From Bacteroidales bacterium (GTDB lineage: Bacteria > Bacteroidota > Bacteroidia > Bacteroidales > UBA932): a stretch of 44,645 nucleotides of DNA. The position numbers and the translations under genes are program-made. The notes beneath the pieces are model-generated. The model was not told where the DNA came from. It saw only the letters and a program-made list of their open reading frames with translations, and ran no database searches. How positions within the stretch are numbered: the stretch's first letter is position 1; every line of letters begins with the position of its first letter. The stretch is taken from assembly GCA_017415715.1 (NCBI GenBank), contig JAFQFD010000039.1, forward strand, positions 1 through 44,645. Direction: 5' to 3'. This document shows, piece by piece, positions 25,126 through 44,645 of this stretch.

Positions 25126-25156
25126 CAAATATAGGAAAAATCCTATAGCAAACCAA
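25126..25156 (-). promoter_or_regulatory. Promoter of nfnAB
   Basis: The minus strand reads TTG (25156-25154), a 20-base spacer and TATATTTG (25133-25126), fitting the Bacteroidetes consensus. It lies about 34 bases before the nfnA ATG, with its -33 box inside the ROK gene's 3' end. Confidence 0.6.
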
Positions 25157-26345
25157 GAAGCTTGCTTCGGCTCAGCATGCACGAGCCGACGGCGCCGGCC
25201 TTCTTTCCAAGTTTCGAGAACTTGATGGTCGTGTCGCTGTTGATGATGTTGAGCGAATGCTTCTGGATGGCGCTCTTGATCGGAAGAAGCAGATATTCCT
25301 TGGTAGATGCGATAGAGCCTCCTATCACAATCAGTTCAGGATTGAACAGGTTGATCAGGCCGGCAGTCGCGCGACCGAGAGTCGTTCCTATCTCCTCTAT
25401 CACTTCGATTGCGAGGACGTCTTCCTCCTTGACAGCGTCGATGATGTCCTCGATGTGGATCTGCTCGCCCTTGTTGAACTTTTCAGAAAGAGTTGAAGTT
25501 CTTCCTTCATTGAGCTTTTCCATGAATATCCTGTATGCAGCAGAGCCTGAAGCACCGGTTTCAAGACATCCGGTCTTGCCGCAATGGCATATCTGGTCGT
25601 TGTTCAGGAGAGGAAAGTGACCGATCTCGCCGGAGAAGCCCGACTTTCCGTAAGAAAGCTTTCCGTCCACGATCATTCCCATTCCAAGTCCCCATGCCAC
25701 GTTGATGAAGAGCATGTTTCTCTCGGTGTTGGCAACTCCGCAGATATACTCTCCATATGTCATGGCTCTGGAGTCGTTCTCGACAAACGCCGGCTTGCCG
25801 AGCTTGTCCTCCAGGACGGATGCTATAGGCTTGTCCTCGCCGAGGAAGTATGAGAAGCAGTATCCTGTCTCATTGTTCACGCGTCCGGTGAGGTTGAAAC
25901 CATATGACAGGACCTTCTCAGGGGCTATCCCATTGGACTTCAGGTGCTCATTGATGAAATCGCAGAGTTCGCGGAAGGATTCCTCCGAGTTCTGGACGGA
26001 GTATGGCAGCTGCTCCTGATAGTCTACCAGCGTGCCTTTGAAATCAGTGACTGCATAGCTGATGAACTTGCGTCTGATGTCCACGCCGACAATGTATCCG
26101 GCAGAAGGGTTGAGTCCGTATATGCTTGGACGGCGTCCTCCGTTGGTTCCTATCTTGCCCATGTCTTCAAGAAGGCCGTCCTCGAGAAGCTCCCCGACCA
26201 GTTTTGTAATGGTCGGGATGCTTGTTCCGAGTTCCTTGCTGAGGTCAGCAAGGCTATAGTCGCCGTCGTTGATGCAGAGACCGAGGATCTTCTGCTTCAT
26301 GACAGAGTTCTTGCCGTCAATGTTGCTTAAAAAAGTCTTGCTCAT
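25143..26345 (-). CDS. ROK-family transcriptional regulator (NagC/XylR-like)
   Basis: 400 residues. Residues about 12-70 form a winged helix-turn-helix (YSLADLSKELGTSIPTITKL, then LLEDGLLEDMGK). The ROK sugar-binding fold follows, with VENDSRAMTYGEY, GFSGEIGHFPL and the zinc motif CHCGKTGCLET. The usual ATP-binding DxGGT motif is replaced by GVDIRRKFISYAV, so this is a regulator, not a kinase. It overlaps the MFS gene stop by one base (TAATG), and the two are in the same transcript as the DUF4434 gene. It probably controls the divergent locus in response to the transported sugar, perhaps an N-acetylated hexosamine (inference). Confidence 0.88.
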   Translation of the reverse strand: MSKTFLSNIDGKNSVMKQKILGLCINDGDYSLADLSKELGTSIPTITKLVGELLEDGLLEDMGKIGTNGGRRPSIYGLNPSAGYIVGVDIRRKFISYAVTDFKGTLVDYQEQLPYSVQNSEESFRELCDFINEHLKSNGIAPEKVLSYGFNLTGRVNNETGYCFSYFLGEDKPIASVLEDKLGKPAFVENDSRAMTYGEYICGVANTERNMLFINVAWGLGMGMIVDGKLSYGKSGFSGEIGHFPLLNNDQICHCGKTGCLETGASGSAAYRIFMEKLNEGRTSTLSEKFNKGEQIHIEDIIDAVKEEDVLAIEVIEEIGTTLGRATAGLINLFNPELIVIGGSIASTKEYLLLPIKSAIQKHSLNIINSDTTIKFSKLGKKAGAVGSCMLSRSKLLGLL

Positions 26346-27751
26346 TAGAGTTTAGGTTTTCTATAGTTGTTCCAATATTCTTCGATCTCCTCAAGGGTCT
26401 TTCCTGTTGTCTCAGGCACGACCTTCCACATGATCAGCATGTATGGCACGCAGCATGCGGCGAAGATGAAGAATGTTCCTGCCTGGCTCCAGCCGAGGAG
26501 TACAGGAGTAAGCTGGCCGATGAGATAGGTGCCGATCCAGAGGGCGAAGCCTGCGATTGACATCGCGCGGCCGCGGACACTGTTCGGATACATCTCTGAG
26601 AGAAGCACGAATACGATAGCCGATATCGAGATTGCGCAGCAGAATACATATGCAAGGAAGAATGTGAGCATGAATCCGTTGCCGAGACCGATCTGCGAGC
26701 CCCATGCGAAGTAGATGCCGATCGCCAGGAGACAGATGATCATGCCTGATACTCCCCAGTAGATCAGCTGCTTGCGGCCGACGCGGTCGATGATGAAGAC
26801 CGCGAGGATTGTTGTCACCATGTTCACTACGCCTACGAGGACTGTCGAGAACATTGGATTGTCGAATCCTGCCTCAGAGAAGATCTTCGGACCATAGTAA
26901 AGCACTGCGTTGACACCCATGAACTGTCCGAGGATGGCGATTGCGCTACCTGTGATGACTGCGATGAGGATGCCCGGCTTGAGAAGGTCTGACCATGCAC
27001 CCTTGGTCTCGCCCTTGAGTGAGTTCTGGGTTACGGTGATCTCTTCTGAAACCTCTTCTGAAGTTGCATATATCTTGCTGAGTACGGCAGACGCCTTGTC
27101 GAGCTTGCCGTTCACGATGAGCCACTTCGGGCTTTCAGGGATGAAGAATATGATGAAGAAGAAGAGGAGGGCAGGGATCGTCTCGCTTCCGAGCATTCCG
27201 CGCCATGCCTCCGTGTTCATTATCTTCTGCCAGAGGGTCACGTCTCCGGTAATCGATGGGTCAATGTTGGCGTCGATCACCCAGTTCATAAGGTATGCCA
27301 TGAGGAAGCCGACAGTCACTGCAAGCTGATACAGAGACACGAGGGTTCCGCGGATCTTTGCAGGCGATACCTCTGATATATATATAGGTGAAACGATTGA
27401 CACGATACCGATGCCGACTCCGCCGATGATTCTGTATGCTACGAGGCCGTCGAAGCTGCCGCAGACAGCGCAGCCGATGGCTGAGATGCTGAAGAGGGCT
27501 GCAGAGATGAGCATGGTGAGCTTTCTGCCGAGATAGTCGCTGAGAGTGCCGGCTACGAGCACTCCGGCAATCGAGCCGATAAGCGCGCAGCCCACATACC
27601 AGCCTTCCATCATGTCAGTGAGCTGAAACTGGTTCTTCACGATTTCTGTGGTGCCGGAGATGACAGCGGTGTCATATCCGAAAAGGATGCCTCCGATGGC
27701 GGCAACCACCGCCATGAATATCACATATCCGATTGTGTTCTTCTGTTTCAT
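26345..27751 (-). CDS. Sugar-porter family MFS transporter (XylE-like)
   Basis: 468 residues from the ATG at 27751. An in-frame ATG at 27760 falls within an extragenic repeat and is less likely. Twelve membrane spans and all sugar-porter signatures are present: GGILFGYDTAVISGT, DYLGRK, the SPIYISEVSPAKIRG segment, PESPKWL, DRVGRK, SEMYPNSVRGRAMS and VPETTGKTLEEIE. This family performs proton-coupled monosaccharide uptake at the inner membrane. Its operon with a ROK regulator and DUF4434 suggests it imports the sugar released by this locus. Confidence 0.9.
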   Translation of the reverse strand: MKQKNTIGYVIFMAVVAAIGGILFGYDTAVISGTTEIVKNQFQLTDMMEGWYVGCALIGSIAGVLVAGTLSDYLGRKLTMLISAALFSISAIGCAVCGSFDGLVAYRIIGGVGIGIVSIVSPIYISEVSPAKIRGTLVSLYQLAVTVGFLMAYLMNWVIDANIDPSITGDVTLWQKIMNTEAWRGMLGSETIPALLFFFIIFFIPESPKWLIVNGKLDKASAVLSKIYATSEEVSEEITVTQNSLKGETKGAWSDLLKPGILIAVITGSAIAILGQFMGVNAVLYYGPKIFSEAGFDNPMFSTVLVGVVNMVTTILAVFIIDRVGRKQLIYWGVSGMIICLLAIGIYFAWGSQIGLGNGFMLTFFLAYVFCCAISISAIVFVLLSEMYPNSVRGRAMSIAGFALWIGTYLIGQLTPVLLGWSQAGTFFIFAACCVPYMLIMWKVVPETTGKTLEEIEEYWNNYRKPKL

Positions 27752-27755
27752 AATT

Positions 27756-27780
27756 GTCATTTCGAGCGAAGTCGAGAAAT
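27756..27780. repeat. Extragenic TTTCTCGACTTCGCTCGAAA palindrome
   Basis: On the minus strand, TTTCTCGA, a short loop and TCGAAA fold into an imperfect hairpin. This sequence type recurs widely as an extragenic repeat in Bacteroidetes. It fills nearly all of the gap between DUF4434 and the MFS gene. Confidence 0.6.
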
Positions 27781-28869
27781 CTATTTGATGTTGAAATATT
27801 CCTTGTACCTGTTATATAAATTGCCTGCTGCGCCATAAACCGACTGAGGGCTCAGGAAGTGAGGGAACTCGAAGGTGATGGCCTTGTCATATCCGCAGCG
27901 CTTTGCAGCCTCCAGCTTGAGGCGGAGCTTGTCGAACTTGATAGGCAGGAACTTGATAGGCATGTCGCGGTCGAATGTCTCGGCATTTGTCCAGCACTGC
28001 ATTCCGTACTTGTCAGCCATCTTCTTGTTCACGCTGAAGAATGCGTCAAGCTCGTCATAGTCGATGTGACCGTCCTGGAAGGCGACAGCGTCAACAACAT
28101 CGTGGATGCCCTGGAAGATCTGACTCCACTCTCTTTCGTGGTCAGCGATTGACACAGCATCTTCCTTTGTGAGAGCGGCTCCGGCAGCGCTGACTGCCTT
28201 CTTTCCGTCGATCCAAGGCGAGATGAATACAGGCATTCCGCCTGAAACCTCCTTGCACTGCGCTCCCATTGCGTGGAATGCGTCAACAGCTCCGATGGTG
28301 TCGCGGCTGATCTCGGTACTGAGGTACCATCCTCCGAAGCTGTCATACTTCTCGCCATACATCTTCCACACCTCGTCGATTACGTACTTGTTGTCCTCGA
28401 TCTCGTGGCTCATGTCCTTGGTGTCCCAATATACTCCCGAGTCATAAAGTCCGAGGTAGAACTTCATGCCGTGCTTCTGCGCAAGGCGGCAGAACATGTC
28501 AATAAGGTCTACTGAAGGCATGTAGCATCCCTTCTTCAGAAGATAAGGAGAAGGGTAGGTGATGAACTTGCGGTATCCGCATCTGATGTCGATCACTGTG
28601 TCGATGCCTATCGCCTTCATGTAGGCGAAGTCCTGGTCCCACTCCTTCTCGCCCCAGTTCTGGTGCGGGATGTCGTGTGAAATCTCGTCAAGGAATGTTC
28701 CTGTGATCCTCAGTCCGTTGTCCTTCGGCACGATAAGTCCGCCTGCAGTCGTGTCGAGCGACGCTGCGGCTCCATTGTCTGATGAACATGATGAAAGAAG
28801 TGAAGGCGCTACGAGGGCGGATGCTCCTCCGATTGCCATTGTCTTTAGAAAGTCTCTACGGTCAGCCAT
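27781..28869 (-). CDS. DUF4434 Tat-exported lipoprotein, glycosidase-like (copy 1)
   Basis: 362 residues. The N-terminus MADRRDFLKTMAIGG has the twin-arginine RRDFLK motif, and a lipobox follows (LLSSC), so it should be folded before export and lipid-anchored. The DUF4434 pattern is clear: GTFLDEISHDIPHQNWGEKE, then DFAYMKAIGIDTVIDIRCGY, WYLSTEISRD, FQDGHIDYDEL and FDRDMPIKFLPIKFDKL. DUF4434 is a TIM-barrel-like family found in polysaccharide loci; biochemistry is not established. Glu in YLSTEISR is a catalytic candidate because the paralogue at the right edge keeps it (YLSQEVSR). It heads the leftward operon (DUF4434, MFS, ROK). Confidence 0.85.
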   Translation of the reverse strand: MADRRDFLKTMAIGGASALVAPSLLSSCSSDNGAAASLDTTAGGLIVPKDNGLRITGTFLDEISHDIPHQNWGEKEWDQDFAYMKAIGIDTVIDIRCGYRKFITYPSPYLLKKGCYMPSVDLIDMFCRLAQKHGMKFYLGLYDSGVYWDTKDMSHEIEDNKYVIDEVWKMYGEKYDSFGGWYLSTEISRDTIGAVDAFHAMGAQCKEVSGGMPVFISPWIDGKKAVSAAGAALTKEDAVSIADHEREWSQIFQGIHDVVDAVAFQDGHIDYDELDAFFSVNKKMADKYGMQCWTNAETFDRDMPIKFLPIKFDKLRLKLEAAKRCGYDKAITFEFPHFLSPQSVYGAAGNLYNRYKEYFNIK

Positions 28870-28905
28870 AGTTGTATATGTTTCAAGTTATAATTTTCCA
28901 ATCAA

Positions 28906-28936
28906 CAAAGATAGTAAATACTTTATAATTTTAAAA
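28906..28936 (-). promoter_or_regulatory. Promoter of the DUF4434-MFS-ROK operon
   Basis: The minus strand reads TTTT (28936-28933), 19 bases, TATCTTTG (28913-28906). The -7 box is a perfect TAnnTTTG; the -33 box is one base off. The spacing is ideal. Confidence 0.6.
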
Positions 28937-28993
28937 GCGGAGACCCGAAAACAATGGCAATTTTTAAAAAACTTTAAAAAATGTACAATGGTT

Positions 28994-29024
28994 TTTGAAA
29001 TTTGCTAAATAGTGTGTACTTTTG
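28994..29024 (+). promoter_or_regulatory. Promoter of the rightward GHL10-SusCD operon
   Basis: TTTG (28994-28997), exactly 19 bases and TACTTTTG (29017-29024) match the Bacteroidetes consensus perfectly. The ATG of the first gene is at 29051, giving a leader of about 20 bases. It is back to back with the leftward promoter within 181 bases. Confidence 0.75.
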
Positions 29025-29050
29025 TCCGAATAATTGTATCAAGGATAAAT

Positions 29051-30367
29051 ATGAAAAATACCATTTTCGCCGTCTTTGCGGCTTTGATGATTCTAACTTC
29101 TTGTAAGTCAGAGGCTAACCACAATTACATGTGGTTTGACTGCGAGGCAAACTATGCAACGCTTTCGCATCCGGACTCAATCCAGTTCTATCTTAAGAAA
29201 TGTAAGGACCTTGGATTCGACAATGTCGTTGTCGATGTGAAGTCCATCATGGGTGAGGTGCTCTATGACAGCGAGATCGCTCCTTACATGGGCGATTGGG
29301 AAGGCGTGGAGAGATCTCGTGACTACGACATGCTCGGTTACTTCATCGAGTATGGACATGAGATGGGCCTCAAGGTCTTCGGCTCCCTCAATGTGTTTGC
29401 CGGCGGACATAACTACTTCGACCGTGGCGTTGTATATATCGACAAGGCTGCATGGCAGTCGATATGCTACCACAACGGTGTGCTGACTCCGATCTCTGAG
29501 ATCAAGACCAACTACAACTGCATGATGAATCCTTCAAACCCTGAGGTTCAGGAATATCAGATCGAGATCCTCAAGGAGTTTGCCCGCAAATACCCTGAGG
29601 TTGACGGACTTATCTTCGACCGCGTGCGATATGACGGCGTCACTGCAGACTTCAGCGAACTTTCAAAGAAGCAGTTCGAGGAGTATGCAGGTGTGACAGT
29701 GGAGAACTTCCCTGAGGACATCCTCAGCTGGTATGACGAGGAGGGAAATCTCCGTCCTAACTGGGTGCTAGGCAAGCATGCAAAGAAGTGGTTCGAGTGG
29801 CGTGCGATGGTTATCCACGACTTCGTGGAGAAGGCTCATGCAGCGCTCAAGGAGATCAACCCTGACCTCATCATCGGTGACTATACAGGAGCATGGTATC
29901 CTACATACTGGCAGCTTGGCGTAAACTGGGCAAGTCAGGAATATGACCCATATCTGGTGCCTCAGTACCAGTCATGGGCGACTGAAGACTACCATAAGTC
30001 AGGCTATGCGGAGATGCTTGACGTATATATGACCGGACTTTATTATACGCTCATCACGAAGGATGATGTAGACAAGGCTACTGGTGTCGTAGGACAGCGC
30101 AGCGAGGCCGGCATGGACAACAGCCTTACATACTGCTATAGCGTGGAAGGTGGAGCAGAGATCGCAAAGGAGATTACCAAGGGAGTGGTTCCTGTGATCG
30201 GATCGATCTATGTGGAGCAGTACCTCGGAGACTTCACTCCGTTCGGACCTGCTGTGACTCAGGCGCTCAAGAGCACTGACGGTGTGATGATCTTCGATAT
30301 CGTGCACCTTAACAAGCACAAGCTTTGGGAGGAGCTTGAGGCTGCGATGAAGGCCGCAGAGAAATAA
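29051..30367 (+). CDS. GHL10 (family 10-like hydrolase) lipoprotein, copy 1
   Basis: 438 residues from the ATG at 29051 (MKNTIFAVFAALMILTSC lipobox). The domain shows the GHL10 TIM-barrel pattern: LGFDNVVVDVKSIMGEVLYD, LKVFGSLNVFAGGHNYFDRG, MNPSNPEVQEY, VDGLIFDRVRYDGVTADFSE, WRAMVIHDFVEKAHAALKEI and GVNWAS. Unlike copies 2 and 3 it has no acidic residues right after the lipid Cys (CKSEANHN) and no Pro/Glu linker, so I infer a periplasmic location. It probably cleaves oligosaccharides, but no specificity is known for the family. It is first in the rightward operon and 37 bases before SusC. Confidence 0.85.
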   Translation: MKNTIFAVFAALMILTSCKSEANHNYMWFDCEANYATLSHPDSIQFYLKKCKDLGFDNVVVDVKSIMGEVLYDSEIAPYMGDWEGVERSRDYDMLGYFIEYGHEMGLKVFGSLNVFAGGHNYFDRGVVYIDKAAWQSICYHNGVLTPISEIKTNYNCMMNPSNPEVQEYQIEILKEFARKYPEVDGLIFDRVRYDGVTADFSELSKKQFEEYAGVTVENFPEDILSWYDEEGNLRPNWVLGKHAKKWFEWRAMVIHDFVEKAHAALKEINPDLIIGDYTGAWYPTYWQLGVNWASQEYDPYLVPQYQSWATEDYHKSGYAEMLDVYMTGLYYTLITKDDVDKATGVVGQRSEAGMDNSLTYCYSVEGGAEIAKEITKGVVPVIGSIYVEQYLGDFTPFGPAVTQALKSTDGVMIFDIVHLNKHKLWEELEAAMKAAEK

Positions 30368-30404: not shown

Positions 30405-33400
30405 ATGAAAGCGATTTACAAGAATCTGCTGGTCGCGTTGATTTTCCTCTTTGGTGGGGCAGCATTATCTTATGCACAGCCTACTATAAAAGGAAAGGTC
30501 GTTGACGCACAGGGACAGCCGCTCCCAGGTGTGGCTGTCATGGTCGTAGGTACCACCAACGGTACTTTGACTGATGATGCCGGTAACTACAGCATTTCCG
30601 GTGTCAAGAATGGACAGGTCGTGCTTTTCACAAGCCTTGGTTTCATGGACCAGACTTTTGACTGCGACGGCACACTTTCAAACCTCGATGTAACAATGAG
30701 TGAGGATGCAAACCTCCTCGAAGAGACAATCGTTGTCGGTTACGGTGTACAGAAGAAGTCCTCAATGACATCTGCAGTATCAGCAATGAAGGGTGACGAA
30801 CTTCTCAAGGCCCCTGCGACAAACGTGTCACAGCTCATCGCCGGCAAGCTTTCCGGTGTGTCTTCGGTGCAGGAGTCAGGAGAGCCGGGTCTCGACCAGG
30901 CATCCCTTCGTATCCGCGGAGCGCAGTATGGAGCCAAGTATGTAGTGGACGGTTTCCCTGTTGATAACATCAACGATATCGATCCATATGATATCGAGAG
31001 CATCTCTGTCCTCAAGGACGGTGCGTCTGCAGCCGTGTACGGACTCCAGGCAGCGAACGGTATCATCATCGTTACCACAAAGAAGGGTGCTGCAGGTAAG
31101 CCGAAGATCACTTACAACGCCACTTTCGGTGCATCTATGAACGCCAACTTCCCTGAGTTCATGGACGGTCCTCAGTTCGCATACTACTATAATGTTGCCG
31201 ACATGATGGACGCCATGGCAAGAGGTGACATTACTTCTCCTGAGGAATATACTCCTTACTTTACATCTGAGCAGGTAAAGCTGATGACCAACGGCGATCC
31301 TACTGACGGATGGGACAATGTCAACTACATCGACAAGGTCTTCAAGACAGGTTTCACCCAGAAGCACAATGTGACCGTATCAGGCGGTACTGACAACTCA
31401 AAGTACTTCGCTTCATTCGGTTACCTCGGTCAGGAGGGTAACATCGACAACTTCACTTACGACAGATACAACGTACGTACAAATGTAGAGTCTGAGTTCG
31501 CTAAATATTTCAAGTTCACAATGGGACTCTCGGGTGTGTTCTCAAACCGTCAGACTCCTGGCTTCAGCTCAGGTGGTTCTGATACGGGTTACGAGGCAGG
31601 ATGGCTCTCAATCCCTAAGATGACCATCATGATGCACCCATACCTTCCGGAGAAGTATGAAGGAAAGTATACCGGTGTTGTTCCTAATAACATCGCAGTA
31701 GCTAACTCACCGCTTCCTGCAATCTACGATTCAGGTTATAAGAAGACCCGTGGCATAGATGTTACGGCAAATGCAACTTTGACCTTTGATGTTCCATACG
31801 TGAAGGGACTTCAGCTCAAGGTTTCAGGTGCCTTCGACTATGGTGCAACCATGAATAAGAATCTTGATACTCCTTTCTTGAATAAGATCATGGTCTATAA
31901 GAATGGAGGATGGTCAGAGTATGGTGATCCAAGACAGAACGAGGGAACAGGAGTTTCTCTTGGAGAGGGTACATCATATTACCAGAGAATGACCGGACAG
32001 GCAGGTGCAACCTACAGCAATACATTCGGCAAGCATTTTATCGAAATCCTTGCTCTCGCTGAGCTCAATGACTATAAGTCAAATGCCCATTCGGCATACG
32101 CAAAGCTTCTTCCGTTTGCAGAACTTCCTGAACTTAGCTTCGGTCAGCCTACAGAAGGTCCTATTTCAGGAAAGAGTGATGCTTGGCGTTCTGCAGGTTA
32201 TGTGTTCCGTGCCCGTTACAACTGGGACGAGAGATACCTTGCCGAGTTCACCGGCCGTTATGACGGTTCATACAAGTTTGCAGGTATGCGCAGTACACGT
32301 TGGGGCTTCTTCCCTTCAGCATCTGCTGCATGGAACATCTCCAAGGAGCCTTGGATGTCTGGAGCCACTTTCCTTGATGACTTGAAGATCAGAGGTTCGG
32401 TTGCGCTTCTTGGTAATGACTTGCCGACATCAGCATATATGTTCTTGAAGACTTTCTCTCCGTCAAGTGATGTGATATACAAGCCTTACATGGGAAATAC
32501 GACTGTAAATCCTTCATATTCTGATAACGGAGTTCCGAATCTTGACCTTACTTGGGAGAAGCAGCTTTCTTATAACGTCGGTTTCGACTTCAGCATGTGG
32601 AATGGAAAGCTCTCCATGGAGGTTGATGCATTCTACAATTATGTGTTTGACATGCTCACATATCAGGGCTCAGGCTTCCCGCCATCAATGGGAGGATACT
32701 ATATGTCTGTCATCAACAAGAACGCATATGACGTGAAGGGTATCGATGTGATGATTTCGCATAAGAACCACTTCATGCTCGGAGGCAAGCCGTTCCAGTA
32801 TGGTGTCAGCGCGACCATCACTTATGCGAAGAACCGTTGGCTCATTTACCCGGATGAACCTAATACAGATGCAATCCGTAAGGTGGTAGGTACCTCTCTT
32901 GATGCATTCTATGTATGGGTTGCTGACGGTCTCTTCCGCAGCGAAGAAGAAATCGACAATTCAGCATGGTACGGAAACAGACCTAATATCGGTGATATCA
33001 AGTATGTCGACCTTAACGGTGACGGTCTGATCAATGAGGTTGGAGACAAGGCACGTATCGGCCGTTCAAACCGTCCTCAGCTCACATATGGTCTCAACCT
33101 TGACTTTGCTTGGAACGGTATTGATTTCAACGCACAGTTCACAGGTGGATCACTCTTCGACATTTCACTTACCGGTACTTATTATAACGGTAATGATGAC
33201 AATACAATCTGGACACAGACTTTCAAGGAAGGTGCAAACTCTCCATTGTTCCTTGTCGAGAATGCATACAGCGTATACAATCCTGACGGAACATTCCCTC
33301 GTCTTACCCTCAGCAACACTGGTGGACATGGTGGAGACAACGGTCTTGCATCGACTTTCTGGCTCCGCGATGGTACTTATGTACGTCTCAAGTCAGCACA

Positions 33401-33593: not shown

Positions 33594-33603
33594 GGATTTG
33601 GCT

Positions 33604-36969: not shown

Positions 36970-38016
36970 ATGAAGAGATTGATCATAATGTTCGCAGCCG
37001 CTGCTCTCGCAATTTCATGCGAGGGCAGGGCTGGCGATATGCCGGAATGGCCATGGGAAGATCCTGAGGTTGAGGCTCCAGAGCAGCAGCCTGAAGAGAT
37101 TCCTGTGGAAGATGCCACACTTGACAAGTGGTCAGACGTGTCTGCTGATTTCGGGCAGCTTCCAGACTATGTAAAGGTGTACAAGTCGCCTGAAACATTG
37201 GAAGGAAAGAAGGCTATAGCATATGTTGCCATAGCTGACATGGCTTCCGCTCAGTGGGATATATGGAGCATCAATGATGCTGCCATGGAAGGTACCACAG
37301 ATTCTTTCAAGACCCCTTCTACAGTGTATGGCGAAGGAAACTGGACTATTGTCATCAACGCCGGTTTCTTCTATGCTTCAGGCGGAAAGAACTATTCTTC
37401 GAGCCTGGCTGTAAGAAACTCAGAAGTTCTCGCATATAATATCAACTATGCGTCAGAGGACTGGGTGACAATGTATTATCCTACCCGTGCAGCTCTTCTT
37501 GAGTCAGAGTCGGGAGATTTTGATGCCTGCTGGACTTACAGGACATGGGATAATCACTATATGTATCCGGCACCTGCTGGCAATACATGGGAGGCAAAGC
37601 CGGCCAAGCAGCCGACTGCTTCTTATCCTGAAGGAGGTGAAGAGTTCGCAGCAAAGACTGCTATCGGTGGCGGACCGCTCCTGATTGACGGAGGAAAGTT
37701 CAGGGATACTTATGTCGAGGAACTTTTCAACGGCACCTCAGGTATCGGACCTGACAGCAATCAGCCACGCACTGCGATCGGTGTCACAGCTGACAAAAAA
37801 ATGATTACCTTTGTCTGCGAAGGAAGACAGATGACTGACGGCGTTGCTGGTTTGACTACTGCTGATGTCGCAAATGTGCTTCTTGATCTTGGGTGTGTCG
37901 AGGCGATCAACCTTGACGGAGGCGGATCAAGCTGCATGCTTGTGAATGGCAAGGAGACAATCAAGGTTTCAGACGGCTCACAGCGTGCTGTCGGAAGTAC
38001 TATAATGATCAAGTAG
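36970..38016 (+). CDS. NAGPA-type phosphodiester glycosidase lipoprotein
   Basis: 348 residues. The signal ends at Cys17 (LAISC) and is followed by an acidic Pro/Glu-rich linker (EVEAPEQQPEEIPVED), suggesting a surface-exposed lipoprotein. The NAGPA fold is recognised from INAGFFYASGG (129-139), AIGGGPLLIDGGKF (231-244), PRTAIGV (266-272) and NLDGGGSSCM (314-323). The animal NAGPA removes GlcNAc from GlcNAc-1-phospho-mannose (uncovering enzyme); bacterial members act on phosphodiester-linked sugars or are uncharacterised. It starts three bases after the DUF5018-like gene and ends one base before a GHL10 gene, so it is firmly in the operon. Confidence 0.88.
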   Translation: MKRLIIMFAAAALAISCEGRAGDMPEWPWEDPEVEAPEQQPEEIPVEDATLDKWSDVSADFGQLPDYVKVYKSPETLEGKKAIAYVAIADMASAQWDIWSINDAAMEGTTDSFKTPSTVYGEGNWTIVINAGFFYASGGKNYSSSLAVRNSEVLAYNINYASEDWVTMYYPTRAALLESESGDFDACWTYRTWDNHYMYPAPAGNTWEAKPAKQPTASYPEGGEEFAAKTAIGGGPLLIDGGKFRDTYVEELFNGTSGIGPDSNQPRTAIGVTADKKMITFVCEGRQMTDGVAGLTTADVANVLLDLGCVEAINLDGGGSSCMLVNGKETIKVSDGSQRAVGSTIMIK

Positions 38017-38017: not shown

Positions 38018-39445
38018 ATGAAGATTTTAAGAAATATCCTTTTTGTTTTGTCGCTTGCTGCCTTTGTGGCTTGCGAGGATCCGGCTGATGACTACCTTTG
38101 GAGTGATGACTGGCAGGAGCAGACTCCAGAGCCAGGTCCGGAAAATCCAGGCCAGGAAGAGCCGGGGCCAGTCGATCCGGAACCTGATAAGCCTGAAGTC
38201 AAGGAGGCGAAGGCTCGTCTTGTATGGATTGATGCAGCAGCCAACTTCAAGGACTATGCTAACGACAAGGAGAACATCTCCAAGGATATGGCCCGTCTCA
38301 AGGAGACAGGTTTTACTGGTGTGATTGTGGAAGTACGTCCTACTACTGCAGGTGTACTGTTCAAGTCAGATGTAGAAGGTCCTGTCACTCAGGTGGATGC
38401 CTGGGTTACTGGCGGCTATAAGTGGCTGCAGAGAACAGCGGATTTCGACTACCTTCAGGCGTTCATTGATGCCGGAAAGGCAGAAGGACTTGACGTTTAT
38501 GCTGCCATCAATACTATGGTAGGTGGTAAGGAATGTCCATATGGCCTCGGATCCGATGGCCCGCTCTTCGACGGAACAGCCAAGAGAGAATGGGCCAGCG
38601 TTGTAAATACATCCGAGGGTCTCAAGAGCTGCATGGATATGGGAACAGGTACCAAATTCCTCAACCCGGCCAACGATGAGGTTGTGGAATATCTTCTCGG
38701 AATCCTTGAAGATCTTGCAGCATATGACGTCAAGGGTATCATTCTTGACCGTTGCCGTTACGATGACAACGACCTTCAGAGTGATTTCTCAGAGGTGTCC
38801 CGTCAGAAATTCGAGGAGTTCATCGGAAAGAAGGTCGAGAACTGGCCTGATGATATCTTCTCTCCTGGTCAGAGCAGCCTTGACAACTATGTGACTGCTA
38901 TGCAGCGTGACTGGATGACATTCCGTGCAAAGAACATCCATGACTTCATGGAGAAGGCTTCTGCAAGAGTACATTCCGTAAATCCTGATGTCCGTTTCGG
39001 AGCCTATGTCGGAGCTTGGTATTCAAGCTACTATTATTCAGGCGTAAACTGGGCAAGTCCGGACTATAATGCCAGAAATGCCTACAACTGGGCTACTGCT
39101 GACTATAATCAGTATGGATATGCAGATCATTGCGACATAATGATCATCGGTGCATATGCCTCTACCAAGTCCATTTATGGAAACAGCGAGTGGACCATGC
39201 AGGGATTCTGCAAGAGAGCTCAGACTATATTTGCCGGAGATGTTCCGTTCATAGGAGGCCCTGACATCGGAAACTCTACAGGCTTCACTGAAGGTGGCCA
39301 GGGAGCACTGATGCCAGACATCGTAGATGCCTGCATCAATGCATCGACAGAAGGTATGTTCTTCTTCGACCTTTGTCACATAAAGATGTATGACTACTGG
39401 AACGACATCAAGAAGGCCTTTGACCAATATCTGGAAACATTATAA
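38018..39445 (+). CDS. GHL10 surface lipoprotein, copy 2
   Basis: 475 residues. The lipobox (AAFVAC) is followed by EDPADDYLW and a Pro/Glu/Gly linker (PEPGPENPGQEEPGPVDPEP), both typical of surface export. The catalytic-type barrel starts near residue 65 (ARLVWIDAAANFKDYANDKE) and shows GVIVEVRPTTAG, KFLNPANDEVVEY, GIILDRCRYDDNDLQSDFSE and GVNWASPDYN. It is closer to copy 3 than to copy 1. The conserved DRCRY aspartate and the VEVRP acidic residue are catalytic candidates. It probably trims the polymer at the surface before SusC import. Confidence 0.85.
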   Translation: MKILRNILFVLSLAAFVACEDPADDYLWSDDWQEQTPEPGPENPGQEEPGPVDPEPDKPEVKEAKARLVWIDAAANFKDYANDKENISKDMARLKETGFTGVIVEVRPTTAGVLFKSDVEGPVTQVDAWVTGGYKWLQRTADFDYLQAFIDAGKAEGLDVYAAINTMVGGKECPYGLGSDGPLFDGTAKREWASVVNTSEGLKSCMDMGTGTKFLNPANDEVVEYLLGILEDLAAYDVKGIILDRCRYDDNDLQSDFSEVSRQKFEEFIGKKVENWPDDIFSPGQSSLDNYVTAMQRDWMTFRAKNIHDFMEKASARVHSVNPDVRFGAYVGAWYSSYYYSGVNWASPDYNARNAYNWATADYNQYGYADHCDIMIIGAYASTKSIYGNSEWTMQGFCKRAQTIFAGDVPFIGGPDIGNSTGFTEGGQGALMPDIVDACINASTEGMFFFDLCHIKMYDYWNDIKKAFDQYLETL

Positions 39446-39474: not shown

Positions 39475-41022
39475 ATGAAAAAAATTGCTTTGATGCTGAT
39501 GGCAGCATGTTTTGCTGTTGTCGCTTGTGAGGAAGAGTTCGTTCCTCATGCTGATTTCCCTCCTACACAGGTAACTATCCCTGCAGTAGGTACTGACGAG
39601 GTTCCGGTTGCATTTGATTTTTCTGCGAATGCGGCATGGACTGCTACTCTCGTAGGTGAGAACGTTGTTGAGTGGCTCTCTATCTCTCCTAAGAAGGGTG
39701 AGGCAGGTGACGCTTCAATCAAGTTCACTGCAACTGCAAACACAGATAAGGAGAACCGCACTGCGACTCTCGAGATCACTGTTGCAGGTCTTGAGCCAAT
39801 CCAGGTTCCTGTAGTTCAGCTCCAGAAGAACGCTATCGACGTAAACGCTGAGGATGCTTACACTATTTCTTTCAAGGGCGGTACAGTTGAGATCGAGGTT
39901 GGTCACAATGTTGACTATACTTACGAGGTTTCAGGTGAGTGGCTTGCTGAGGTCAAGTCAAAGGCTTACACAACTGACAGGCTTACCTTCTCTGCTCCAG
40001 AGCAGGAAGTTAACGCTCCAGCAAGAACAGCTACTGTAACTGTATACAGCGAGCTTGGTGTTGTTAAGATCGTCACTGTAACTCAGGAGGCATGGAGCCC
40101 TATCGTATGGTCTAAGTCACTTGCAGAGCTTGGTGCAACTCCAGGTCGTGTAGGTATCGGTGCTTTCGGTAATTACGTTGCTTTCACAGCTAACGGTGCC
40201 GCTTACCTCGCAGATGCTGCTACTGGTGAGAATGTTCAGGCAGTTCCACTCCCAGAGGGATTCGTAGCCGGTGGTGTTCATGTTGACGACGCTGGCAACC
40301 TTATGGTATCAAGCCCTGACCGTACAGTTTCTGACGGTGTTGGCGGTCAGCTCCAGCTCTTCCTTGTAGATCCTGTGACTTTCGCTCCAACTCCACTCAT
40401 CGACTACAACTCAGCTAACTTCTATTGCACAGAGATGGGTAACTTCCGCGTTAAGGGTGATGTTACAAAGGACGCTGTAATTGCTGCTTATGTATGTACT
40501 GGTCCTGGCGCAACTTATGTTCTTTACTGGGAAGTTAAGAATGGCGTAGTAGCTGCTCCTGCTTACATTGCTCTTCCTGATTATTCATGGGATGCATCAA
40601 CAGGTGTTGTAGCTCCTGCTGGCGCAACTCTGGCTGACGGTTTCTACTGCATCACTTACGGTGCTGATTACGACCTCTTCTATTACGATGGAGCTGAGTG
40701 GGCTAAGACTTGGGAATCGCCTGCCTCTTGGATGGAGAACTTCAACTGTATTTCTACAACTGAGGTTAACGGTACCAAGTATCTTGGTCTTACAATGTCT
40801 TGCCACTTCAACTATGACTACACTGATATCGTAGTTCTCGATGTAACTGATCCTAAGGCAGCTAAGGAAGTCTTCAAGATCCAGATGAACTACCACACTA
40901 CAAACGAGGCAGGTCTTACATACTCAGATATCTTCATCAAGGGTGAGGACGGCAAGCTCGCAGCTTACGTGATCGATCCTTGGATGGATGCAGTTGAGAA
41001 GTATCTCTTCCCACTTGAGTAA
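39475..41022 (+). CDS. BACON-domain surface glycan-binding lipoprotein
   Basis: 515 residues. The lipobox (AVVAC) precedes EEEF, a surface export signal of the Bacteroidetes acidic type. Two BACON-type Ig domains occupy residues about 33-118 (AVGTDEVPVAFDFSANAAWT, VEWLSISPKKGEAG) and 119-207 (GGTVEIEVGHNVDYTYEVSG). Residues about 215-515 form a bladed domain shared with the DUF5018-like protein. BACON domains are thought to space or bind glycans. The gene uses GCT and GTT codons much more than its neighbours. A strong hairpin follows its stop. Confidence 0.82.
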   Translation: MKKIALMLMAACFAVVACEEEFVPHADFPPTQVTIPAVGTDEVPVAFDFSANAAWTATLVGENVVEWLSISPKKGEAGDASIKFTATANTDKENRTATLEITVAGLEPIQVPVVQLQKNAIDVNAEDAYTISFKGGTVEIEVGHNVDYTYEVSGEWLAEVKSKAYTTDRLTFSAPEQEVNAPARTATVTVYSELGVVKIVTVTQEAWSPIVWSKSLAELGATPGRVGIGAFGNYVAFTANGAAYLADAATGENVQAVPLPEGFVAGGVHVDDAGNLMVSSPDRTVSDGVGGQLQLFLVDPVTFAPTPLIDYNSANFYCTEMGNFRVKGDVTKDAVIAAYVCTGPGATYVLYWEVKNGVVAAPAYIALPDYSWDASTGVVAPAGATLADGFYCITYGADYDLFYYDGAEWAKTWESPASWMENFNCISTTEVNGTKYLGLTMSCHFNYDYTDIVVLDVTDPKAAKEVFKIQMNYHTTNEAGLTYSDIFIKGEDGKLAAYVIDPWMDAVEKYLFPLE

Positions 41023-41033
41023 TCATTCTACTT

Positions 41034-41068
41034 GCAGCCGGGAGCATCCGGTTCCCGGCTGCATTTTA
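41034..41068 (+). terminator. Hairpin terminator after the BACON gene
   Basis: GCAGCCGGGA (41034-41043), a 9-base loop and TCCCGGCTGC (41053-41062), a perfect 10-base stem, then ATTTTATAATTTT. The T-tract is interrupted, so it may be partial, allowing read-through into the epimerase gene. Confidence 0.7.
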
Positions 41069-41095
41069 TAATTTTAACTAAAACCGATCATTACA

Positions 41096-42259
41096 ATGGA
41101 TTTCAAGAAACTTGCTGCTCAGTATAAGAGCGAGCTTTTGGACAGCGTCCTTCCTTTCTGGCTTGAGAAGTCCCAGGACCTTGAGTACGGCGGATATTTC
41201 AGCTGTCTGGACCGTGACGGAAGTGTTTTTGACACAGACAAGTTCATCTGGCTTCAGGGAAGGGAAGTGTGGATGTTCGCGATGATGTATAACAAGGTGG
41301 AGAAGAAGCAGGAGTGGCTTGATTGCGCTATCCAGGGAGCAGAGTTCCTCAAGAAGTATGCGCATGACGGCAATTATGACTTCTATTTCTCGGTGACCCG
41401 TGAGGGAAAGCCTATCATCCAGCCATATAACATCTTCTCGAACACATTCGCATGCATGGCATTCGCCCAGCTTGCTGAGGCTACTGGCAGCGAGGAGTAC
41501 AAGGAGATCGCTCTGAAGACTTTCCAGAGGATTCTGGACCGCCGTAATGATCCTAAGGGACGTTGGGAGAAGTCATATCCCGGAACACGTCCTATGAAGG
41601 GTTTCGCACTCCCAATGATCATCTGCAACATGGCTCTCGAGGTGGAGAACATCCTCCCCGACAAGTCACTGCTTGACCAGACTATCGACGAGTGCCTGAG
41701 CGAGATTCTCAATGTCTTCTACTACCCTGAGCTGGGTGTGATGCTTGAGAATGTGGCTCCTGACGGAACCCCTATAGACTGCTTCGAAGGCCGTGAGATC
41801 AATCCTGGCCACGACCTTGAGGCTTTATGGTTTATGATGAACCTCGGTATCCGCAGAAACGACAAGGCCCTTATCGACAAGTGCGTAGAGATCGCTCTCA
41901 GCGTTGTCGAGTTCGGTTGGGACAAGGAGTACGGCGGAATCTTCTACTTCCAGGATCTCAAGGGGGCTCCTATGCAGAAGCTCGAGTGGGATCAGAAACT
42001 CTGGTGGGTGCACCTCGAGTCGGCAATCTGCTTCATCAAGGCATACCAGCTGACCGGAAACCAGCAGTGTCTGGAGTGGTTCGAGAAGATCCACAACTAT
42101 ATGTGGACACATTTCAAGGATCAGGAATATCCTGAATGGTATGGCTACCTCAACCGCCGCGGAGAAGTCCTCCTGACTCTCAAGGGCGGAAAGTGGAAGG
42201 GCTGCTTCCACGTACCGAGAGGTCTCTACCAGATCTGGCAGATCCTCGAAACTCTATAA
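41096..42259 (+). CDS. N-acylglucosamine 2-epimerase (AGE family)
   Basis: 387 residues, no signal peptide, cytoplasmic. The RENBP/AGE hallmarks are SCLDRDGSVFDTDKFIWLQG, REVWMFAMMYNK, PGTRPMKGFALPMIICN and FEGREINPGHDLEALWF with His239, then LWWVHLESAICF with His306 and KGCFHVPRGLYQIWQ with His372; the first and last fit the two catalytic histidines of the family. It interconverts N-acetylglucosamine and N-acetylmannosamine (or related sugars such as glucose and mannose). The sequence is nearer AGE than cellobiose 2-epimerase. It lies between two terminators, so it is expressed partly on its own. This implies a ManNAc or GlcNAc moiety in the substrate (inference). Confidence 0.85.
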   Translation: MDFKKLAAQYKSELLDSVLPFWLEKSQDLEYGGYFSCLDRDGSVFDTDKFIWLQGREVWMFAMMYNKVEKKQEWLDCAIQGAEFLKKYAHDGNYDFYFSVTREGKPIIQPYNIFSNTFACMAFAQLAEATGSEEYKEIALKTFQRILDRRNDPKGRWEKSYPGTRPMKGFALPMIICNMALEVENILPDKSLLDQTIDECLSEILNVFYYPELGVMLENVAPDGTPIDCFEGREINPGHDLEALWFMMNLGIRRNDKALIDKCVEIALSVVEFGWDKEYGGIFYFQDLKGAPMQKLEWDQKLWWVHLESAICFIKAYQLTGNQQCLEWFEKIHNYMWTHFKDQEYPEWYGYLNRRGEVLLTLKGGKWKGCFHVPRGLYQIWQILETL

Positions 42260-42264
42260 GCCAT

Positions 42265-42300
42265 AAAAAAGGAGAATTGCTCAAGCGATTCTCCTTTTTT
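42265..42300 (+). terminator. Rho-independent terminator after the epimerase gene
   Basis: AAAAAAGGAGAATTGC pairs with GCGATTCTCCTTTTTT around a TCAA loop with a single G-T wobble, giving a long stem ending in a six-T tract. It is a strong intrinsic terminator by pattern. Confidence 0.85.
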
Positions 42301-42331
42301 GTTACTATCTTTATCCAAAATATAGCCCAAT

Positions 42332-43750
42332 ATGAAAAAACTGATATCACTGATGCTTGTCTTGTTTATGGTCTGCGCTTGCGATGACAACAAACTTGAC
42401 ATTGAATCGGAATTCGATAAGAACGGCTGGAATGAGCAGGAAACTCCGCAGGAGCCTGAACCGCCTGTAGATCCTGAACCACCGGTGGAGCCGGAGCCGG
42501 TCAAAGGCAAGAGATGCTTCATATGGATCGAAGGAAATGCCAATTTCCGTGACTATGGGGACAGCAGGGAGAATATCGCCCGTGACATGGAGAAGATTGC
42601 GGACTGCGGCTTTACGGACATTGTCGTGGATGTGAGACCGGCAGGGTCCGGAGGTGATGTCCTCTTCCAGACAGACAAGTGCAGCCAGGTTCAATATATG
42701 GGTGCCTATATTGATGGAGTCTATACGCGCGTAGAGCGTTCATCAAGCTGGGATTACCTGCAGGCGTTCATCGAAGAAGGCCATAAGGCCGGTCTGAATG
42801 TATATGCCGGTTTCAACACATTCTGCGGTGGTCATGTTTCGGGGCTTGGCAAGAACGGTGTGATCTTCAGGGATTCCAATCTGGCGCAGCACGCCACCGT
42901 CATGAATACTGCAGAAGGCCTGAAGTCCATTGTGGACGTCTGGGCTGACGAAAAGTTCTTCAACCCTGTCCATCCGGATGTGCAGAACTATGTCATAGGT
43001 CTGTTGAAGGATCTGGCGGCATATGATGATCTGGACGGAATCATCCTTGACAGGGCCAGGTTTCATGGCTTCATGAGCGACTTCTCGGATTATACCAGAG
43101 GCGAATTTGAGAAATATATTGGCAAGTCAGTAACAAATTGGCCTGCAGATGTCCTTCCGGCAGGTCATGAACATTTCCTCCCGGAGCCTATGACACCACA
43201 TGTGAAGGAGTGGATAGAGTTCAGGTGCAAGGTGATACACGATTTCATGACAGATGCCCGCGAGGCGGTCAAGTCTGTCAATCCTGATATTGACTTCGGA
43301 GCCTATGTCGGAGGGTGGTATGAACAGTATTATGACAAGGGAGTCAACTGGGCGAGTCCTGATTATATGGCAAGCTTCTATTTCCCAAGCTGGGCTACGA
43401 AAAAGTATGAGTCTTATGGCATAGCTGATCTTCTTGATGTTCAGATTATAGGCGCATATGCTTCATATAATGGAGTATACGGCTCAAGCGAGTGGACCAT
43501 GCAGGGCTTCTGCAGACTTGCGAAACAGAAGACCAAGGGTGCTCCCGGCCTGCTGATCGGCGGACCTGATGTCGGAAACTGGAACTGGGACGGCAAAGCG
43601 ACAGTCGAAGCCGAGTTGACATCAGTTACCAATTCTGTCAAGGCCTGCGCTGATGAGTGTGACGGATACTTCCTCTTCGACCTTTGTCACCTCAAGCTCG
43701 AACCACGCAAATGGGATGCTGTCAAGACTGGAATATCTCAGCTAAACTAA
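42332..43750 (+). CDS. GHL10 surface lipoprotein, copy 3
   Basis: 472 residues. The lipobox (VCAC) is followed by DDNKLDIESEFD and a Pro/Glu linker (QEPEPPVDPEPPVEPEPV), again surface-type. The barrel begins near residue 58 (KRCFIWIEGNANFRDYGDSR) and shows DIVVDVRPAG, KFFNPVHPDVQNY, GIILDRARFHGFMSDFSDYT, GVNWASPDYM and SEWTMQGFCRLA. It closely resembles copy 2, with DRARF replacing DRCRY. It follows a strong terminator, so it needs its own promoter; a near-consensus TATCTTTA at 42306-42313 is the only candidate, and no matching -33 box is visible. It lies six bases before the second DUF4434 gene. Confidence 0.85.
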   Translation: MKKLISLMLVLFMVCACDDNKLDIESEFDKNGWNEQETPQEPEPPVDPEPPVEPEPVKGKRCFIWIEGNANFRDYGDSRENIARDMEKIADCGFTDIVVDVRPAGSGGDVLFQTDKCSQVQYMGAYIDGVYTRVERSSSWDYLQAFIEEGHKAGLNVYAGFNTFCGGHVSGLGKNGVIFRDSNLAQHATVMNTAEGLKSIVDVWADEKFFNPVHPDVQNYVIGLLKDLAAYDDLDGIILDRARFHGFMSDFSDYTRGEFEKYIGKSVTNWPADVLPAGHEHFLPEPMTPHVKEWIEFRCKVIHDFMTDAREAVKSVNPDIDFGAYVGGWYEQYYDKGVNWASPDYMASFYFPSWATKKYESYGIADLLDVQIIGAYASYNGVYGSSEWTMQGFCRLAKQKTKGAPGLLIGGPDVGNWNWDGKATVEAELTSVTNSVKACADECDGYFLFDLCHLKLEPRKWDAVKTGISQLN

Positions 43751-43756
43751 CTCCAT

Positions 43757-44645
43757 ATGAAAAAGATACTCTCAATAATCATTGTCGCTGTCTTGGCGAT
43801 GTCATGCAGCAGCAGATGTGAGTTTACAAATGCTCAGTTCAAGACAGCAGAATGCCCTCAGGGCATGAAGATCAATGCCACTTTCCTGGATGAGATCAGC
43901 TGGGATATACCGCATCAGAACTGGGGAGTGGGCGAGTGGGACCAGGACTTCCGTGCCATGAAGGATATGGGCATCAATACGGTAGTTCTCATACGTGCCG
44001 GCCTTGGACGTTGGATTGCCGCTCCTTTTGAATCAATACTTGCGACAGAAGATGTGTATTATCCTCCGGTAGACCTCGTCGAGATGTTCCTCTGCCTTGC
44101 CGACAAGTATGACATGGCATTCTATTTCGGAATGTATGATTCCGGCAAGTACTGGCATGAAGGGGATTATCTGAAGGAGATAGACCTCAATATAAAGCTC
44201 ATTGACGAAGTCTGGGCCAAATATGGCCACCACAAGTCATTCCAAGGCTGGTATCTCTCCCAGGAAGTCAGCCGCAGGACAAAGAACATGACCAAGATCT
44301 ATGCAGAGGTGGGCAGGCATGCAAAGGAAGTGTCAGGCAATCTTCCGACTATGGTTTCGCCATATATCCATGGGGTGAAGACCGACCAGGTGATGTGGGG
44401 AGACAAGGCAACGACAGTCTCTGAGCACGAATTCGAGTGGAACGAGATCCTCAGCAATCTTCAGGGCGTGGTTGACATCCTTGCGTTCCAGGACGGTCAG
44501 GTGGACTATCATGAATTGTATGACTACCTCGTTGTCAATAAGAAGCTTGCTGACAAATACGGAATGAAATGCTGGACAAATTTCGAGTCGTTTGACCGCG
44601 ACATGCCGATCCGCTTCCTGCCTATCAAATGGGAGAAGCTCCTCC
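43757..44645 (+). CDS. DUF4434 lipoprotein, copy 2 (cut by window end)
   Basis: 296 codons are visible from the ATG at 43757; the gene continues past the window. The signal MKKILSIIIVAVLAMSC is a normal Sec-type lipobox, unlike the Tat signal of copy 1. The DUF4434 motifs are preserved: NATFLDEISWDIPHQNWG, DFRAMKDMGINTVVLIRAG, WYLSQEVSRR, FQDGQVDYHELYDYL and FDRDMPIRFLPIKWEKL. It is in the same unit as GHL10 copy 3 (six-base gap). It probably acts on the same glycan as copy 1 but is exported by a different route. Confidence 0.85.
   Translation, partial: MKKILSIIIVAVLAMSCSSRCEFTNAQFKTAECPQGMKINATFLDEISWDIPHQNWGVGEWDQDFRAMKDMGINTVVLIRAGLGRWIAAPFESILATEDVYYPPVDLVEMFLCLADKYDMAFYFGMYDSGKYWHEGDYLKEIDLNIKLIDEVWAKYGHHKSFQGWYLSQEVSRRTKNMTKIYAEVGRHAKEVSGNLPTMVSPYIHGVKTDQVMWGDKATTVSEHEFEWNEILSNLQGVVDILAFQDGQVDYHELYDYLVVNKKLADKYGMKCWTNFESFDRDMPIRFLPIKWEKLL

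Follow-up and report, generated by a model that had tools for sequence, protein, structure and literature searches.

The 44,645-nucleotide contig JAFQFD010000039.1 of a Bacteroidales bacterium (assembly GCA_017415715.1), here called the window, carries from position 25143 to its right end a SusCD-type glycan utilization locus whose putative enzymes belong to the GHL10-DUF4985, DUF4434, and NAGPA families. We find that these families recur together across the Bacteroidota and make up a single coherent type of locus. The window locus is a NAGPA-bearing variant, without a glycoside hydrolase (GH) of family 89 in the part seen, of a kind of locus that is already known and that has no assigned substrate in the literature portions available to us. 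Tentatively, and with somewhat less than even confidence, we read it as a locus for an anionic, esterified glycan that contains N-acetylglucosamine (GlcNAc) or N-acetylmannosamine (ManNAc), probably with phosphodiesters, and not as a sialic acid (nan) cluster. DUF4434 and GHL10-DUF4985 are the most constant enzyme families of this locus, which is spread through gut and environmental Bacteroidota. Once its function is solved, two glycosidase families would become defined, and a new gut nutrient source might come to light as well; that function is directly testable, since the locus is present in cultivable, genetically tractable Bacteroides.

All the genes named in an earlier note on this DNA were found by Pfam where that note had placed them. 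On the reverse strand lie DUF4434 copy a (27781 to 28869; PF14488, 275 bits), a putative TIM-barrel glycosidase whose N-terminus (RRDFL...LSSC) is a Tat/lipoprotein-type signal; a sugar-porter-family MFS importer (26345 to 27760; Sugar_tr, 386 bits; TIGR00879, 369 bits, cut-off 238); and a ROK-family transcription factor with an N-terminal winged helix-turn-helix (25143 to 26345; Pfam ROK, 181 bits, and HTH_24), which scores 183 bits against the NagC model, under the cut-off of 650. The forward-strand arm begins with the lipoprotein GHL10-DUF4985 copy a, a putative glycosidase like copies b and c (29012 to 30367; GHL10 71 bits, DUF4985 117 bits; LTSC lipobox), and the adjoining genes for a SusC-like TonB-dependent transporter (30405 to 33593; Plug and CarbopepD_reg_2) and a SusD-like lipoprotein (33598 to 35259; SusD_RagB, 207 bits). 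These are followed by a DUF5018 surface lipoprotein, a putative glycan binder (35278 to 36966; PF16410, 305 bits; VASC lipobox); a NAGPA lipoprotein, a predicted phosphodiester glycosidase (36970 to 38016; PF09992, 97 bits; AISC lipobox); GHL10-DUF4985 copy b (38018 to 39445; 51 and 113 bits); and a surface protein with BACON (58 bits) and a DUF5018-like match (26 bits, under the cut-off of 38.2) at 39475 to 41022. The arm ends with an N-acyl-D-glucosamine 2-epimerase (AGE/RnBP; 41096 to 42259; NF052547 equivalog) with no signal seen, GHL10-DUF4985 copy c (42332 to 43750; 56 and 90 bits), and DUF4434 copy b (43757 to 44645; PF14488, 204 bits), which is cut by the contig end.

Every GHL10, DUF4985, DUF4434, and NAGPA match in the window exceeds its curated Pfam cut-off. 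The three GHL10 proteins, both DUF4434 proteins, and NAGPA have lipoprotein or Tat-type N-termini, as assigned by eye and with simple patterns, which together with the SusC-SusD pair is the makeup of a SusCD locus; from their families, these proteins would be glycan-active enzymes. Intergenic gaps in the right arm are only 1 to 73 bp, so GHL10 copy a through DUF4434 copy b is likely one operon. The two arms do diverge from a single promoter region (28870 to 29050), as had been proposed, with 142 bp between the listed starts or ∼181 bp if GHL10 copy a starts at ATG 29051. This lipoprotein ATG is probably the true start rather than the listed GTG at 29012, which falls within a Bacteroides-type promoter motif (TTTG-N19-TANNTTTG, 28994 to 29024, forward strand). 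We matched this motif with what we take to be the consensus; it occurs once in the window versus 0.40 expected, and it thus gives positional support only.

The window is the entire contig (C36) of a 2.58-Mb draft genome that is 86% complete, so the locus it contains is incomplete. Positions 44505 to 44645 are repeated exactly at the end of contig C17, a 141-nt overlap that resembles an assembler k-mer overlap. A DUF4434 fragment at the C17 end pointed to this overlap, and 100% matches in the genome occur only at these two places. In the sister genome G179, the same genes from DUF4434 copy b onward lie in the same order on one contig, with 86 to 99% identity to the joined sequence in aligned blocks. 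C36 and C17 therefore belong together, and the locus extends past 44645. In joined coordinates, DUF4434 copy b ends at 44803 on the forward strand (348 amino acids). Three reverse-strand genes point back toward the window: DUF5009 (44820 to 46205), a calcineurin-like phosphoesterase (46207 to 47628), and a CE2-type esterase (47635 to 48747). Two forward-strand genes complete the block, an FAD oxidoreductase (49381 to 51246) and a GH3 (51607 to 53973) closest to the BoGH3B beta-glucosidase (1005 bits). In G179, the GH3 starts 36 bp behind the FAD oxidoreductase, and there are two open reading frames (ORFs) absent at these places from the window genome, one of 316 amino acids that precedes DUF5009 and one for an SGNH esterase that precedes the FAD oxidoreductase. 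A second sister genome, G178, has DUF4434 copy b and no other seeded family in the following 17 kb; because it lacks the DUF5009-to-GH3 block there, we regard that block as accessory.

This continuation changes part of the earlier picture, which was of a polysaccharide locus with no classical hydrolase. Within the window part of the locus, no classical GH, sulfatase, or lyase family scores above its Pfam cut-off, as claimed. The note had added that a canonical hydrolase just past 44645 would count against the idea, and the BoGH3B-like GH3 of the joined sequence, ∼7 kb beyond the edge, partly does so.

The families recur together in other genomes. A pattern scan of one genome collection, taken over its first 595 pattern matches, gave at least 568 relatives of DUF4434. 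We scanned 80 of their loci, many of which end at contig ends, and phmmer seeds matched MFS in 72, SusC in 59, ROK in 49, SusD in 45, DUF5018 in 32, and NAGPA in 22. The record titles cover Bacteroides, Prevotella, Hoylesella, Alistipes, Muribaculaceae, Proteiniphilum, and Prolixibacteraceae, mostly from the gut, with one labelled fen. Among the matches listed, the nearest named DUF4434 relative is that of L020, an uncultured Bacteroidales bacterium sampled from roe deer rectum; its best segment is 100% identical. In an evenly drawn sample of 149 Bacteroidales genomes, DUF4985 occurs in three, and the same three have DUF4434 above 240 bits and are among the five with DUF4434 above 100 bits; the other two (G008 and G064) have a diverged DUF4434 without DUF4985. 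All eight DUF4985 domains in the sample share their contig with DUF4434, the nearest copy being 0.1 to 10.4 kb away. By hand calculation, the chance that the DUF4985 genomes fall by coincidence among those with DUF4434 above 100 bits is ∼5e-4 (2/2 among 4/148, with the window genome excluded). NAGPA by itself is commoner (30/149 genomes).

To define the gene set, we used 10 better-covered loci, selected for long stretches: the window with C17, Bacteroides pyogenes (G153), Bacteroides finegoldii (G154), G187, G199, G215, G220, G224, G230, and G231. Genes were counted from 6 kb before to 26 kb after DUF4434, or over the whole stretch for the window genome. DUF4434, MFS, SusC, SusD, and AGE are in all 10 loci (in B. 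pyogenes, AGE only as the type linked to the sialic acid lyase NanA), GHL10 and the phosphoesterase (Metallophos) in nine, DUF5009 and the FAD oxidoreductase in eight, ROK in seven, and DUF5018 and NAGPA in six. Six further genomes were considered separately, of which the window sisters G179 and G178 (with gaps) and G183 (on two contigs) fit this gene set over their covered parts; the others were G072, G185, and G221. Altogether, the co-occurrence, the distances between DUF4985 and DUF4434, and the content of the 10 loci bear out the suggestion that the families form one coherent set.

Classical glycosidases, by comparison, vary from locus to locus. Our tally comes from seed searches and Pfam scans of selected ORFs rather than a full CAZyme scan, and the GH numbers attached to Pfam names are presumed equivalents. 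Seeded classical GHs occur in 12/80 loci, mostly GH20. Four of the 10 better-covered loci (G199, G215, G220, and G231) have no classical GH in the main operon, where all ORFs longer than 150 amino acids were identified by seeds or Pfam; in G220, a GH2 lies outside it, ∼25 kb after DUF4434. To this extent the idea of a locus without classical hydrolases holds, but other loci have a BNR-type sialidase with GH20 (B. pyogenes), GH3 with GH109 (B. finegoldii), GH89 with two GH97 (G230), or, in the ROK operon, GH27 (G187). G224 probably has a GH97 as well, in a 658-amino-acid ORF placed like a 657-amino-acid ORF of G230 that is GH97. GH89 was considered as a constant partner and rejected; the family is in 18/34 genomes, but its seed found none in loci L006 to L118, and among the further Bacteroides stretches it appears only in G230.

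What might the two constant enzyme families do? DUF4434 copy a is close to a solved structure (PDB 4h41, E 3e-182) deposited as a putative alpha-L-fucosidase, which we take to be BT_0435 of Bacteroides thetaiotaomicron. A 35-row profile search gave no other credible solved relative of DUF4434 (next E 0.8). In the 35-row alignment, E186 and E297 are invariant, and two such glutamates would suit a retaining TIM-barrel hydrolase. In a tree of GHL10 proteins, copy a separates from copies b and c, and either side has counterparts in other genera; copy c has a long branch and an uncertain placement. Judged from this tree, the three window copies are not recent duplicates. The closest solved structure by GHL10 profile is Cwp19 (E 6e-14 and 2e-16), followed by weak matches to several chains, including the GH156 sialidase 6rzd (0.0065) and PgaB (0.025). 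The carboxylate-binding Arg202 of GH156 aligns with an Arg that is invariant in 16/16 GHL10 rows, which hints at an anionic group in the GHL10 substrate. This alignment comes from a weak match (E 0.0065 and 0.02) over only 35 and 32 residues; the catalytic Asp14 and His134 (and Arg129 and Asn346) fall outside it, and 8fjf, 4s1a, and 4qfu outrank 6rzd in one or other profile search.

Gene fusions connect the GHL10 family to other activities. In B. pyogenes (L118, 12968 to 15643), an 891-residue protein combines GHL10-DUF4985 (19 to 426) with a calcineurin-like phosphoesterase (436 to 887), and a DUF4985 match lies within the fusion's 899-amino-acid frame in G059, which is the same genome. The same fusion is encoded in G183 (L117, 10503 to 13172). 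G215 encodes SASA-GHL10-DUF4985 and SASA-NAGPA fusions (L136, 61 to 2754 and 8397 to 10727). Because fused genes usually serve one substrate, GHL10, the phosphoesterase, the esterase, and NAGPA probably work together on a single one. The phosphodiester theme also appears in G224 (L137, 8658 to 10133), where a gene between AGE and DUF4855 encodes a GDPD domain joined to a 3-keto-disaccharide hydrolase domain.

The window NAGPA protein has both the domain and the NLDGGGS motif, which is kept in 17/17 aligned rows. The window AGE passes the NCBIfam N-acyl-D-glucosamine 2-epimerase equivalog cut-off (670.4 versus 600 bits) and matches the GlcNAc 2-epimerases 6f04 (E 2e-156) and 2gz6 (8e-153), while cellobiose epimerases reach only ∼1e-21. 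Five AGEs of related loci score 676 to 723 bits against NF052547, compared with 346 for the NanA-linked AGE of B. pyogenes; by these scores, the window AGE is of another clade than the NanA-linked epimerase. There is no NanA lyase in the locus, and the best match in the window genome, at its 86% completeness, is 24% identical. Because NanA is absent and the AGE is of another clade, we rejected membership in a nan cluster. The window genome also has two NagB-family matches and one BNR_2 match barely above cut-off (36.5 versus 31.4 bits).

The window genome has nine NAGPA-domain matches versus zero to three in each of the other 148 genomes of the sample. They are spread over contigs C34, C25, C37, C21, C10, and C36 (L120 to L124). 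The C34 NAGPA is fused to a xylose-isomerase-like TIM barrel, next to a phosphatase-type metallophosphoesterase and two MFS genes. In the five other stretches chosen for NAGPA, no ORF has DUF4434, GHL10, AGE, ROK, or MFS_SP as its best match.

Taking these observations together, the constant core enzymes (phosphoesterase, esterases, GHL10, DUF4434, AGE, and often NAGPA) and the species-variable classical glycosidases fit a glycan with a conserved amino-sugar core and variable ends. The glycan is probably anionic and esterified. In the mechanism that we infer, the DUF5018, BACON, and SusD lipoproteins would hold it at the surface and SusC would take in fragments, roles assigned by family. Further breakdown would take place at the cell surface or in the periplasm: acyl groups would be stripped by esterases of the CE2, SGNH, and SASA types, phosphodiesters and bonds of the sugar-1-phosphodiester kind would be opened by the calcineurin-like phosphoesterase together with NAGPA, and the conserved core would be cleaved by the GHL10-DUF4985 and DUF4434 glycosidases. 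Classical glycosidases (GH3, GH89, GH97, GH27, or GH20 with sialidase), added per species, would trim the variable caps. The freed amino sugar, ManNAc or GlcNAc, would be imported by the MFS porter and sensed or reported by the ROK protein; AGE would interconvert ManNAc and GlcNAc at C2, and the product would feed GlcNAc catabolism.

Several observations weigh against this reading or against a fixed gene set. The MFS importer belongs to the sugar-porter family, whose known members mostly carry neutral sugars. AGE of either type was found in 47/80 loci and any GHL10 in 39/80, with many of these loci truncated. Four of the 10 better-covered loci lack NAGPA, so a sugar-1-phosphodiester need not be a core feature. 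Over 19 kb, G072 shows GHL10, SusCD, DUF5018, and the FAD oxidoreductase, and neither AGE nor MFS. G185 lacks GHL10, NAGPA, and the phosphoesterase but carries DUF4434, AGE, MFS, SusC, ROK, SASA, and GH27, and a full-length DUF4434 of G221 (C11, 46903 to 47775; 289 bits) stands alone, with 39 kb around it free of the other seeded locus families; these last two count against a fixed set. Finally, the SusC protein BT_0439 of B. thetaiotaomicron was seen on galacto- and milk oligosaccharides (PMC5238430), which are not phosphoglycans.

It is tempting to place the locus among host-glycan systems (mucin, milk, or N-glycan), in which GHL10-DUF4985 would be a sialidase-like, GH156-related enzyme, or one for another host acidic sugar, and the locus would join sialidase, GH20, and GH89 in degrading glycans that carry sialic acid or an alpha-GlcNAc cap. 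We consider this possible but doubtful. The Bacteroides neighborhoods argue for it: the B. pyogenes locus is bounded by SASA, a BNR-type sialidase, and GH20 at one end and by NanA, AGE, and MFS at the other, and in G224 and B. finegoldii, SusCD and AGE (with a 154-amino-acid MFS piece in B. finegoldii) diverge from a sialidase-GH20 pair. GH20 seeds match in 10/80 loci, and BNR_2 domains, which are not sialidase-specific, are in 34/39 genomes. The alignment of Arg202 of 6rzd with the invariant GHL10 Arg points the same way, and BT_0439 is found in host-glycan proteomes and the B. thetaiotaomicron operons are induced in vivo. However, NanA is in 1/10 loci, and a sialidase is within the counted span in 1/10, that of G224 beginning just beyond the +26-kb limit. 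The window genome has no close NanA and only the borderline BNR_2 match, its AGE differs from the NanA-linked one (670 to 723 versus 346 bits for the two kinds), the 6rzd match is short and outranked, and the relatives include the fen-labelled record.

An ordinary plant-polysaccharide locus, in which the DUF and GHL enzymes are accessory and the BoGH3B-like GH3 and unlinked enzymes do the main work, is in our view unlikely. The GH3 does lie beside the FAD oxidoreductase, at 7 kb beyond the contig edge, and the nearest genomes carry ruminant gut names. Yet GH3 is in only 2/10 better-covered loci and 2/80 loci overall, four main operons do without any classical GH, G178 has DUF4434 copy b without the GH3 block, and plant glycans would leave AGE and NAGPA unexplained.

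A more specific version of the phosphodiester reading, in which the locus type consumes bacterial surface phosphoglycans such as Gram-positive wall teichoic acids, seems to us rather improbable. The linkage unit of these polymers is ManNAc-GlcNAc-1-phosphate. NAGPA, the GHL10-fused phosphoesterase of two genomes, and the GDPD of G224 would cut phosphodiesters; GHL10-DUF4985 and DUF4434 would be new glycosidase families acting on the amino-sugar core; AGE would turn ManNAc into GlcNAc; and GH27, GH89, GH97, and GH109 would remove variable alpha-linked decorations. We know of no teichoic-acid-utilizing Bacteroidales locus, and none was evident from the titles or abstract openings of the papers listed in one search on teichoic acid and utilization loci. 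A constant core with variable caps fits both host glycans and bacterial surface phosphoglycans: the former are favored by the Bacteroides neighborhoods with sialidase and GH20, the latter by the phosphodiester-type enzymes and their fusions, the absence of NanA, and the non-host relatives. Scavenging of peptidoglycan strands, with GHL10 enzymes acting like the peptidoglycan-cutting Cwp19 and DigH on naked chains of GlcNAc and N-acetylmuramic acid (MurNAc), would agree with Cwp19 as the nearest solved structure, but we think it very unlikely because, of 16 aligned GHL10 proteins, 15 have Arg and 1 has Tyr at the Cwp19 Asp196 position (strand 4; the preceding Asp195 is conserved), and, moreover, the scanned locus proteins include no MurNAc-lactyl etherase or amidase domain, and NAGPA and the phosphoesterase are left unexplained.

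Some further features of the neighborhoods are worth recording. A flavoprotein/iron-sulfur oxidoreductase pair (22847 to 25182, reverse strand; Fer4_20 with Pyr_redox_2, and DHODB_Fe-S_bind with NAD_binding) abuts the ROK gene, and a Fer4_20/Pyr_redox_2 gene also comes after the locus in G230. Farther left (19402 to 21708, reverse strand) are a BlaI-type repressor and then a BlaR1-type M56 peptidase with a TonB C-terminal domain. Among the 80 loci, a 455-amino-acid ORF with no Pfam match at E 1e-4 (L083, 11035 to 12402) is one of 13 clustered ORFs from 12 loci, and five of them lie less than 300 bp from a core gene. These ORFs may be antisense artefacts, since DUF4434 or MFS genes are called at such places in several loci.

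Comparison with known systems sets the locus in context. Cwp19 and DigH, which cleave peptidoglycan glycan strands, share the Pfam GHL10 family with the window copies. The membership of DigH is our assumption. Contrary to what had been suggested, the family's chemistry is thus not wholly uncharacterized, but the window copies carry a DUF4985 C-terminal domain and have no equivalent of Cwp19 Asp196. The inverting GH156 sialidase EnvSia156 (6rzd) shares with window GHL10 a (beta/alpha)8-type catalytic domain, assigned on the window side by Pfam family only; the sequence similarity, in which Arg202 lines up with the invariant Arg, is weak, over 32 to 35 residues, and Asp14 and His134 cannot be aligned. 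The Bacteroides nan cluster shares an AGE-family epimerase and an MFS gene, and it differs in having a NanA lyase, a sialidase, and an AGE of the other clade. The B. pyogenes locus (L008 and L118) differs in its NanA/AGE/MFS and BNR-type sialidase-GH20 flanks and in that its sole AGE is NanA-linked. It shares with the window locus two DUF4434 genes, MFS, SusCD, DUF5018, three GHL10 (one phosphoesterase-fused), DUF5009, NAGPA, esterases, and the FAD oxidoreductase.

A published counterpart is BT0435-BT0455 of B. thetaiotaomicron. To our knowledge, this species has no nan catabolism, and we take BT_0455, a neighbor in the region, to be a sialidase. In PMC10434189, BT0438-0440 are an alpha-N-acetylglucosaminidase, a TonB receptor, and SusD; BT0442 is DUF4855; BT0446-0449 are DUF5009, two family 10 glycosylhydrolases, and a calcineurin-like phosphoesterase; and BT0451-0454 include SusD, a TonB receptor, and a sugar porter. 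BT_0438 has been studied as a GH89 (PMC8225759), and published data show in vivo induction of operons BT0439-0443 and BT0453-0449. The passages on BT0435-BT0455 assign no substrate, with supplements and most subscription papers outside our reach, and we found no substrate for DUF4434 or GHL10-DUF4985; DUF4434 is named in none of the papers that a search for it gave, and DUF4985 in none of those listed for it. Because this homologous region, with the solved DUF4434 structure 4h41 and published expression data, is already in the literature, the label of an undescribed system, for which the window locus had been named a candidate, is too strong. The B. thetaiotaomicron region has GH89 and DUF4855, whereas the window locus has three GHL10 copies and NAGPA, with no GH89 in the part seen; the two share GHL10, DUF5009, the calcineurin-like phosphoesterase, SusCD, a sugar-porter MFS gene, and a DUF4434 homologue.

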